Part shown: in pieces, positions 7,720-22,847 of the stretch | Numbering within the stretch: the first letter of the stretch is position 1 | Layout: the number at the start of each line of letters is the position of its first letter | Source: Nitrososphaerales archaeon | GTDB lineage: Archaea; Thermoproteota; Nitrososphaeria; Nitrososphaerales; CADDZS01 | Reading direction: 5' to 3' | Length of the DNA: 35,300 bases | NCBI GenBank assembly: GCA_030037995.1 | Contig: JASHPQ010000095.1 | Span: 1-35,300, forward strand | Translations under genes and position numbers: made by a program | The notes under the pieces: generated by a model | The model's input: the letters and a program-made list of their open reading frames with translations, nothing else | Told to the model about the DNA's origin: nothing | The model's database searches: none

Positions 7720-8457
7720 TTGGGTAAGAGGATCTTACAGCGCCACAGGGGCAAGGGAGGTCTTCAGTATCGGGCACCCCAGATTGGCAAATTTGCAAAG
7801 GTACGCTATCCATTTGTCCCCGAGGGGCAGACTGCCGAAATGAAAGTACTTGACGTAGTCCACGAAAGGGGAAGGGCCTATCCTTTAGCGGAGCTGGACT
7901 ACTCCGGAAAGAGATTCTACATCCCAGCGGTCGCTGGAACTACCGTCGGAACGCAGATTCAGATTGGTCCCCAAGCTTCACTGACTTCGGGGAACATTTT
8001 GCCACTCTCTAGTATCCCAGAAGGTACGGCGATTTGCAACATCGAGCGGTATCTCGGAGATGGTGGGCGTCTTGTGAGACAAGCGGGTGAATCTGCAATT
8101 CTTTTCGCGAACACCGCCCAGGGCTCGACCATCAGGATGCCTTCTGGTCGCACGGCTTTCCTTTCTCCGAGGTGCCGCGCCTCAATTGGTATAGTCAGTG
8201 GAGGAGGAAGAGTGGAAAAGCCGTTTCTCCGGGCAGGAGCCAAATATCATTTGATGAAGTCAAAGGGCAAGGCATATCCTCGCATGCGTGGGATTGCGAT
8301 GGCGGTCGTTTACCATCCATTCGGAGGTGGCAGGCATCAGCATCCTGGCAAGTCGACTTCCACCTCTCGCAATGCGCCTCCAGGTAGGAAAGTAGGAAAC
8401 ATTGCTCCGAGGAAGACCGGCCGAAAGAGAATAGTTAGGCCTGAGGACAAATTATAG
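7720..8457 (+). CDS. rpl2: Large-subunit ribosomal protein uL2
   Basis: uL2 is a core rRNA-binding protein needed for subunit association and peptidyl transfer. The 245 residues begin GKRILQRHRGKGGLQYRAP, the archaeal/eukaryotic N-terminus. The C-terminal part holds the conserved RGIAMAVVYHPFGGGRHQH, including the histidine region near the peptidyl transferase centre. The start is TTG and the strong N-terminal match supports it. uS19 follows after 19 bases. Confidence 0.97.
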   Translation: MGKRILQRHRGKGGLQYRAPQIGKFAKVRYPFVPEGQTAEMKVLDVVHERGRAYPLAELDYSGKRFYIPAVAGTTVGTQIQIGPQASLTSGNILPLSSIPEGTAICNIERYLGDGGRLVRQAGESAILFANTAQGSTIRMPSGRTAFLSPRCRASIGIVSGGGRVEKPFLRAGAKYHLMKSKGKAYPRMRGIAMAVVYHPFGGGRHQHPGKSTSTSRNAPPGRKVGNIAPRKTGRKRIVRPEDKL

Positions 8458-11613: not shown

Positions 11614-11985
11614 TTGAAGGCGTCTACTAGTTCATCAAAGCCAGTAAAGGTCAGGAAGGATCTTGCAAACAGCCCCATTAGGGAAAAAGGCCTCGAACTC
11701 GCCAGAGCAATGCTCTCTACTGACTTGAAGGCGAAGTACGCGACCAACTCAGTCAGAGTGAGACCGGGTGATAACGTGAAACTAGTCAGAGGCGAATACG
11801 CCGGAGTCGAGGGAAAAATTCAGAAGGTCTTTCCTCAGGAAGGGAGAATTACCGTGGAAGGCGTGACCCGTGAGAAGATCGCAGGTGGGACTACGCCGCT
11901 CAGGATTCACACATCCAATGTCGTTGTTACCGGTCTGAACCTGGATGACAAGTTTCGCCGGAAGAAATTGGAAGGAACTGCTTGA
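11614..11985 (+). CDS. rpl24: Large-subunit ribosomal protein uL24
   Basis: uL24 is an assembly-initiating protein with a KOW motif. The 123 residues include the archaeal N-terminal region with LANSPIREKG and the KOW part VRPGDNVKLVRGEYAGVEGK, then KVFPQEGRITVEGVTREKI and the C-terminal helix HTSNVVVTGLNLDDKFRRKKL. The start is TTG. eS4 follows after 36 bases. Confidence 0.96.
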   Translation: MKASTSSSKPVKVRKDLANSPIREKGLELARAMLSTDLKAKYATNSVRVRPGDNVKLVRGEYAGVEGKIQKVFPQEGRITVEGVTREKIAGGTTPLRIHTSNVVVTGLNLDDKFRRKKLEGTA

Positions 11986-21355: not shown

Positions 21356-22483
21356 ATGACCGATCTCCCTTACGGCCATCTGACACGCTTCACGAAAGAG
21401 GCTGCTCAAAGAAACGAGACTGATCTAGTCGTCTTATCGTCTGAAGAACAAACTGACCCCGCCTACGGTCAGAAGCCGGGGGAAAGGCTGATCAAAGAAT
21501 ACCTTTCACACGGTTTCGTCGTTCTCGACAAGCCCCAGGGTCCAACGAGCCACGAGGTCGTCGCATGGGTCAGAAAAATGCTCTCACAGGAGAGGGCGGG
21601 TCATTCCGGGACTCTAGATCCTATGGTTTCTGGATTATTGCCCATTGGCCTGGGAGAGGCCACAAAAGCTTTATCGGTCCTACTTCTTGGGCCCAAGGAG
21701 TACGTCTGCGTTGCCAGAATTCATGATTCGGTCCCCAGAGAAATCCTCTACGGCGCCATTAACCAGTTCAAGGGGCCGATTTTTCAAAAGCCTCCTCAGA
21801 GATCCTCAGTAAAGAGGGTGACTAGGACGAGGACGATTTACGAGCTCGAAATATTGGAGCAGGCGGGTAATCTCCTGCTACTCAGGATTCTTTGCGAAGC
21901 CGGGACGTACATCAGGAAACTCGTGTACGACATTGGCGAAGTCATCGGGGTTGGCGCGACGATGGTGGAGCTGCGCAGGACCCGTGTCTGCCACCTGGAC
22001 GAGAGCGATCTCGTGAGATTGCATGATCTTTACGAATCCAACGAAGTCTTCAAGGAATCCGGAAAGGAACAAAAGCTTCGAGAGATAGTTCGGCCTATTG
22101 AATACGCAGTCTCTTTCCTTAAACAGATCAAGATCCGGGACTCTGCGGTCGAATCCCTTTGCCAGGGCGCACAGCTGGCGATCCCGGGAATCGTCGCCAT
22201 TTCAAAAGGAATACTGAAGGGCGAAATTGTTCGGATCGTGACGATGAAAGGAGAGCTCGTCGCGATAGCGGAAGCGCAGCTGGGAGAAGAGCAGCTCCTC
22301 ACAGAGGAGCACGGCTTGGTCACAATCACTAAGCGCGTAATTATGAACCCAGGAGTCTATCCAAAAATGTGGAAATCTAGGAAAGAAGTTATCGTGGAAA
22401 GCGAAGGTGTTTCGGAAGCTTTGCTCAGAGAATCAATTCTAGACAGTCTCGAAAAGGAAGAAAGTGATCTGGAAGACCGGTAA
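21356..22483 (+). CDS. cbf5: tRNA/rRNA pseudouridine synthase Cbf5
   Basis: Cbf5 is the catalytic subunit of H/ACA ribonucleoproteins and also makes Psi55 in archaeal tRNA. The 375 residues show the TruB-type catalytic motif AGHSGTLDPMVSG with D88, GFVVLDKPQGPTSHEVVAWV before it, EAGTYIRKLVYDIG for the active-site region, and a C-terminal PUA domain (about residues 285-355) with GAQLAIPGIVAISKGILKGEIVRIV. The last 25 residues are acidic. The start is ATG. It ends the plus-strand operon before tRNA-Ser. Confidence 0.96.
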   Translation: MTDLPYGHLTRFTKEAAQRNETDLVVLSSEEQTDPAYGQKPGERLIKEYLSHGFVVLDKPQGPTSHEVVAWVRKMLSQERAGHSGTLDPMVSGLLPIGLGEATKALSVLLLGPKEYVCVARIHDSVPREILYGAINQFKGPIFQKPPQRSSVKRVTRTRTIYELEILEQAGNLLLLRILCEAGTYIRKLVYDIGEVIGVGATMVELRRTRVCHLDESDLVRLHDLYESNEVFKESGKEQKLREIVRPIEYAVSFLKQIKIRDSAVESLCQGAQLAIPGIVAISKGILKGEIVRIVTMKGELVAIAEAQLGEEQLLTEEHGLVTITKRVIMNPGVYPKMWKSRKEVIVESEGVSEALLRESILDSLEKEESDLEDR

Positions 22484-22530
22484 AAAAACATAGAAATATG
22501 CTTCGATTCGCAAATAGAAACCAGTGCAAG

Positions 22531-22538: not shown

Positions 22539-22575
22539 TAAAATGGCATGAACACCTTATGCCGGGGTCGCCTAG

Positions 22576-22624
22576 CGCCCGATGCAGCTTCCGAGAAAAA
22601 CTCAGAAGAAGGGAGGGCGGGAAT
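22576..22624 (+). other. tRNA intron 1, in the D-loop (49 nt)
   Basis: The intron is bounded by GCCC (22577-22580) pairing with GGGC (22615-22618). A three-pair central helix forms between exon CCT (22571-22573) and intron GGG (22619-22621). The cuts fall in the flanking bulges AG^C and AT^C. This is a relaxed bulge-helix-bulge. A shift by one base is possible because of the shared C. Confidence 0.75.
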
Positions 22625-22639
22625 CCTGGTAGGGCGCAG

Positions 22640-22693
22640 CTTCTAAACGAAGGTCGTTCGTAAGAGATGGAGACCTTCGAAGGATTTGCGTAC
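22640..22693 (+). other. tRNA intron 2, in the anticodon stem between 29 and 30 (54 nt)
   Basis: This intron fits a full bulge-helix-bulge. TAGG (22630-22633) pairs with CCTG (22695-22698), and GCGC (22634-22637) pairs with GCGT (22688-22691). The three-base bulges AGC and ACG carry the two cuts. Inside, CGAAGGTC and GACCTTCG form an eight-pair hairpin. Confidence 0.82.
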
Positions 22694-22701
22694 GCCTGGA
22701 A

Positions 22702-22759
22702 ACCAAGGCTTTTGATCAAGTCTGCCGTTCCCAACGGCATTCGCTTGTACCGTACGGAA
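22702..22759 (+). other. tRNA intron 3, canonical 37/38 position (58 nt)
   Basis: The exon anticodon stem CAGGC/GCCTG is the outer helix. The central helix is CTG (22696-22698) with CGG (22755-22757), and the cuts lie in AA^A on both sides. GGAAA is repeated at both ends, so the precise site rests on the canonical position. An internal GCCGTT/AACGGC hairpin is present. Confidence 0.78.
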
Positions 22760-22847
22760 AGCCTGTGACCGCATTGGTCTCGTGGGTTCAAATCCCACCC
22801 CCGGCGCTCTCTCATCTACTTTTCATAAGTGTTCTTTGATCAAAAGA

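Follow-up and report, generated by a model that had tools for sequence, protein, structure and literature searches.

The window, the whole stretch of 35,300 nucleotides that was analysed, belongs, as one contig, to a MAG of 3.31 Mb (87.7% complete, 5.2% contamination) from a thaumarchaeote; we refer to this genome as G000. Adjoining cbf5 in the window is a tRNA-Ser(GGA) gene of 246 nt (22561-22806, + strand, tRNA position 1 to 73) that is divided by three introns into four exons. The parts of the locus are as follows:

21356-22483, + strand: cbf5, the upstream neighbour, encoding a TruB/dyskerin-type pseudouridine synthase (Pfam TruB_N, TruB_C_2, DKCLD and PUA)
22561-22575, + strand: exon 1, tRNA positions 1-15, same sequence in close relatives
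22576-22624, + strand: intron 1, D-loop 15/16, 49 nt, relaxed HBh' motif with covariation in five sequences
22625-22639, + strand: exon 2, tRNA positions 16-29, same sequence in close relatives
22640-22693, + strand: intron 2, anticodon stem 29/30, 54 nt, hBH motif with covariation across families
22694-22701, + strand: exon 3, tRNA positions 30-37, with the anticodon GGA at 22698-22700
22702-22759, + strand: intron 3, canonical 37/38 site, 58 nt, relaxed motif at a site shared by homologues
22760-22806, + strand: exon 4, tRNA positions 38-73, with the long variable arm, the T arm, the acceptor 3' strand and G73

Removal of the introns of 49, 54 and 58 nt joins the exons into an 85-nt serine tRNA with the anticodon GGA and G73, in which all stems are paired, the acceptor, anticodon, variable and T stems among them, and the variable arm is long. 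A sequence-only reading of this DNA had described such a gene, and its coordinates, strand, intron lengths and mature product were all reproduced. Neither ARAGORN run without introns nor Rfam at gathering and relaxed thresholds matched a tRNA-Ser(GGA) at the locus, which is expected for a tRNA interrupted in the D-loop and the anticodon stem. A conserved box like ATAGAAATA was noted upstream of the gene at window positions 22489-22505, and in L249, L253, L255 and L256 a similar box precedes the tRNA by 46-70 nt; this box is possibly the promoter of the tRNA-Ser gene.

The homologous locus in relatives was located through its cbf5 neighbour, orthologues of which were found in 36 of the 41 genomes searched and which served as the synteny anchor. 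Several families of the order have the tRNA-Ser(GGA) gene downstream of cbf5, with which it is syntenic across the order. In these cbf5-linked homologues the exons are identical or near-identical, and the introns number one, two or three, range from 12 to 58 nt and diverge in length and sequence around the conserved exons. All three intron positions are common to both congeners (G001 and G002), to G004, which belongs to another genus of the family, and to L148 from a more distant thaumarchaeote, where the gene is split at all three places by much shorter inserts. The lengths of the D-loop, 29/30 and 37/38 introns are 49/54/58 nt in G000, 40/44/54 nt in G001, 20/13/33 nt in G002 and 40/56/52 nt in G004. 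The 37/38 intron is present in nearly all of the cbf5-linked homologues, the 29/30 intron in families f1, f2 and f4 but not in others, and the D-loop 15/16 intron in G001, G002, G004 and L148. G007 has its D-loop insert elsewhere (about 20/21), together with both other introns. Comparison with homologous tRNA-Ser genes, which had been suggested for this locus, showed that relatives from several families have the same gene next to cbf5, in some cases with one or two of the introns missing, and the insert positions are conserved or variably present as in an EndA-spliced multi-intron tRNA gene. One family member (G005) was observed to have an intronless, sequence-diverged tRNA-Ser(GGA) after cbf5 (L030), possibly a replacement gene.

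These comparisons bear on two other explanations of the locus. That standard tRNA finders miss it might point to a decayed tRNA pseudogene with insertions, its function having been taken over by another Ser(GGA) gene. However, the T-arm/acceptor pattern of this tRNA has a single match in the genome (MAG 88% complete), the exons are intact and the same as those of relatives while the introns diverge, and the inserts are at identical places in several species. Exon identity combined with variable introns at fixed sites is not explained by an insertion artefact or a pseudogene, and we give the pseudogene very little credence. We found no evidence that any of the inserts is a self-splicing intron of group I/II or a non-EndA intron of another kind. 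Introns of 49-58 nt are far below the size of self-splicing introns, as are those of 12-58 nt in the homologues; Rfam gave no group I/II match at the locus, no ribozyme core was found, and the junctions agree with relaxed bulge-helix-bulge geometry. We regard self-splicing or another non-EndA route as even more improbable than a pseudogene, and the three inserts are treated below as putative EndA introns.

At the splice site in the anticodon stem (29/30), the exon helix is formed by TAGG (22630-22633) and CCTG (22695-22698), 4 bp, and the centre by GCGC (22634-22637) and GCGT (22688-22691), also 4 bp, with the three-base bulges AGC and ACG. The sequence-only reading had listed these elements, and they are present, but its further description of a full bulge-helix-bulge does not hold for the window's genus: the intron-side helix beside the bulge has 1 of 4 pairs in G000, so that the motif there is hBH. 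The full hBHBh' form occurs in other relatives, with 3-4 of 4 intron-side pairs in G003, G006, G007, G009 and G025. In an alignment of eight distinct rows, assembled by hand at assumed splice sites, the central helix covaries between families, changing from C-G to G-C with an exon change and showing C/U on one side. Thermodynamic folding of the unspliced precursors of four genomes gave pairing probabilities of 0.77-1.00 for this central helix.

The D-loop motif is relaxed, its centre of GCCT (22570-22573) and GGGA (22619-22622) having three pairs, next to a 4-bp intron helix of GCCC (22577-22580) and GGGC (22615-22618). A strict or relaxed BHB is thus found at both the D-loop and the 29/30 junctions. 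The 49-nt D-loop intron can be read in the alternative registers 15/16 and 13/14; a cut at 16/17 gives the same product as one at 15/16. The same gene cut at 13/14 would place AUCCUGGUA (U15) in the mature D-loop, and in the window's own genome this register, with four central, four exon-side and two intron-side pairs, is better than 15/16. Cutting at 13/14 loses the conserved purine 15 that is present in relatives without a D-loop intron, and in G001 and G004 a hand check showed an internal C.A mismatch in its central helix. Helix covariation also favours 15/16: across five homologues (five distinct rows, again hand-assembled at assumed splice sites), 85% of cells are paired in that register, with four pairs showing double changes, in comparison to 27-46% paired in slid registers, and its covariation score was matched by 1 of 500 shuffles. 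We therefore consider the 13/14 cut unlikely; the sequences support 15/16 as the best placement, retaining G15, with 13/14 and 16/17 ranked lower.

At the canonical site, which is the weakest of the three, the centre is CTGG (22696-22699)/ACGG (22754-22757) with three pairs (four in G002), and the exon helix is the anticodon stem. Thermodynamic folding did not predict this motif, with the other introns present or removed (probability about 0), and its pairing score goes up once the 29/30 intron is removed. For random placements, the 95% quantile of the motif score is 2.3 and the 99% quantile is 3.8; the D-loop and 37/38 introns score 2.9 and 2.75, respectively, so that a few percent of such placements reach the score of either motif taken alone. 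All three intron positions that had been proposed (D-loop, after 29 and 37/38) agree with the homologues, and the three central pairs described for the D-loop and 37/38 motifs are present in G000.

Relaxed motifs had led to the expectation of an endonuclease able to cut them, and the genome encodes a fitting candidate. There are two EndA paralogues, L052 (184 aa; L052:1231-1785, + strand) and L053 (236 aa; L053:1462-2172, - strand). The first matches crenarchaeal alpha subunits (e.g., Aeropyrum pernix 3P1Z, 4.7e-37) and has the active-site Tyr, His and Lys (Y-H-K triad). Its lysine K40 aligns with K44 of the crenarchaea-specific loop (CSL), the residue needed for broad EndA specificity (PMC6379350). 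In L053 the catalytic His is missing, and the protein resembles a non-catalytic EndA beta subunit. RtcB is also encoded, so that a predicted EndA of the relaxed-motif type and a ligase occur in the same genome. The pair resembles the (alpha-beta)2 EndA of Aeropyrum pernix (3P1Z) in the Y-H-K triad, the K44-aligned lysine and the separate His-less subunit, but, unlike that enzyme, its assembly and activity are predictions from sequence.

Taken together, the locus is very probably, in a mesophilic thaumarchaeote from soil, a functional and apparently single-copy gene for tRNA-Ser(GGA), whose introns at 15/16, 29/30 and 37/38 would be removed by proteins, an EndA alpha/beta and RtcB. The exons and introns, their conservation, covariation at two of the sites and the enzyme genes are observed directly, and from them we infer cleavage, its order and ligation. 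In the mechanism we propose, all three introns would be cut by a heteromeric EndA that pairs a catalytic alpha subunit, bearing the CSL-type lysine, with a beta subunit that is itself non-catalytic. The D-loop motif takes up the 5' strand of the D-stem, and the 29/30 motif takes up its 3' strand along with some of the anticodon loop; both motifs are thus compatible with a precursor that has yet to form its D-stem. EndA may first cut these two introns while the D-stem is open; the D-stem and anticodon stem could then form, completing the 37/38 exon helix, after which the 37/38 intron would be cut and the exons sealed by RtcB. This order, with 37/38 last, is suggested by base-pair geometry, the folding of intermediates being without the 37/38 motif. 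The same dependence has been described for closely spaced introns with tRNAscan-SE 2.0 (PMC8450103).

The tRNA-Ser gene was found to be one of many interrupted tRNA genes in its genome. The Rfam tRNA model scored 7 tRNAs above its cut-off in G000; the corresponding counts were 5-23 for the remaining genomes of the family and 12-41 per genome for the rest of the order. G000 was sampled by means of T-arm patterns together with a covariance model of the T arm, which covers tRNAs with typical T arms on the contigs of the assembly. This gave 25 tRNA genes of different anticodon (L001-L021, L068, L085, L090, L240 and L245), about half of the expected set. Introns were counted with a structural parser, written because plain spliced alignment to the intron-poor tRNAs of a relative undercounted them; its output for a few genes (Ser-TGA, Glu-CTC, Pro-GGG and Cys) needs to be corrected by hand. 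All 25 genes contain introns, about 45 in total or about 1.8 per gene, and 15 have two or more. The intron sites are many, and some introns probably lie at 8/9 and in the variable region. Uninterrupted tRNAs would be the easiest for the Rfam model to detect, yet every tRNA found has an intron, which makes it unlikely that many intronless ones remain hidden. The 28 tRNAs detected in G004 (L265-L292; genome 94% complete) all have 92-307 nt between complementary acceptor strands. The tRNA-Phe of G004 (L286) has seeming introns at about 8/9, in the anticodon stem and in the variable region, and none at 37/38.

The tRNA-Gln(CTG) gene resolves into apparently four introns in two genomes, G004 (L297; G004:C77, match 11618-11639) and G008 (L293; G008:C181, match 7916-7937). 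They lie at 8/9, in the D-loop, at about 26/27 and at 37/38, with lengths of 38/19/45/44 nt and 40/17/37/41 nt, respectively, and their removal leaves a mature tRNA of 73 nt. The D-loop length, G10-U25 pair and variable region of the restored tRNA agree with the tRNA-Gln(TTG) of an intron-poor relative. The motif of the first intron (8/9) is weak, and the evidence for that intron is the restored tRNA together with a hairpin inside it. In both genomes a second copy of the 5' acceptor strand was observed 11 nt upstream. The published maximum is three introns per archaeal tRNA gene (PMC8450103), and among the papers listed by our literature search none dealt with a four-intron archaeal tRNA gene. 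We consider it somewhat more likely than not that the tRNA complement of this family is intron-saturated, none of the detected genes in G000 and G004 being uninterrupted.

The tRNA-Ser gene itself is, by all sequence criteria, real and functional and of a protein-spliced multi-intron archaeal type that is already known; what is new is the lineage, together with its apparent intron saturation. Two statements of the sequence-only reading need revision in this respect. It had called such a gene uncommon, which is wrong for this lineage: three introns occur genus-wide in the gene, and no intronless gene was detected in G000. It had also named Thermoproteales as the main home of multi-intron tRNAs, and non-canonical and multiple introns were already reported from Thaumarchaeota (PMC8450103). 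The likeness to Thermoproteales (Pyrobaculum and Thermofilum) is close, as their tRNA genes can likewise hold as many as three EndA introns, with non-canonical sites and both strict and relaxed motifs (PMC8450103, PMC3218864, PMC4033280). Introns per tRNA gene average 0.84 in Thermoproteales and 0.21 over archaea, and the published record is that of Pyrobaculum calidifontis with 71 introns in 46 tRNA genes (PMC8450103); the density in G000 is comparable to or above the latter. Unlike Thermoproteales, the present host belongs to the Thaumarchaeota and has a congener predicted to be mesophilic, SubAcS9-71 (G001 by sequence match), one of the heterotrophic terrestrial Thaumarchaeota of acidic subsoil with a predicted growth optimum of 33 C (PMC10640624). 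In the same phylum, the tRNAscan-SE 2.0 survey recorded 107 non-canonical BHB introns in the thaumarchaeal genomes surveyed (PMC8450103), whereas the G000 total, canonical and non-canonical, comes from 25 genes of one genome. Caldiarchaeum subterraneum, of a Thaumarchaeota-related lineage, likewise has multiple and non-canonical tRNA introns, but in 13 of 45 tRNA genes, with 3 multi-intron genes (PMC3293823).

On these figures, the extreme of tRNA intron density is no longer held by the hyperthermophilic Thermoproteales but by soil archaea that are apparently mesophilic. If intron saturation is true, massive gain of tRNA introns would be independent of hyperthermophily, and precursors may have an obligatory splicing order built in. 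Finders unaware of introns are expected to miss most tRNA genes in this family, and tRNA counts used to judge MAG quality would consequently be too low. The genus also offers natural variants of one pre-tRNA, with introns that range from 13 to 54 nt at a single site, for studies of splice-site recognition and order with a low-temperature EndA.

Thermoproteales have families of transposed introns (PMC4033280), in contrast to G000, where there was no significant similarity among 40 introns; the score of the best intron pair was reached in 6 of 60 shuffles, giving no support for transposition within this genome. We also noted a tRNA-Glu(UUC)-like sequence in G000 (L012:1501-1575; G000:C313:16508-16582) that ends after the T-loop, without a matching acceptor 3' end, and may be a truncated copy, the scar of an integration or a site that holds an additional intron.
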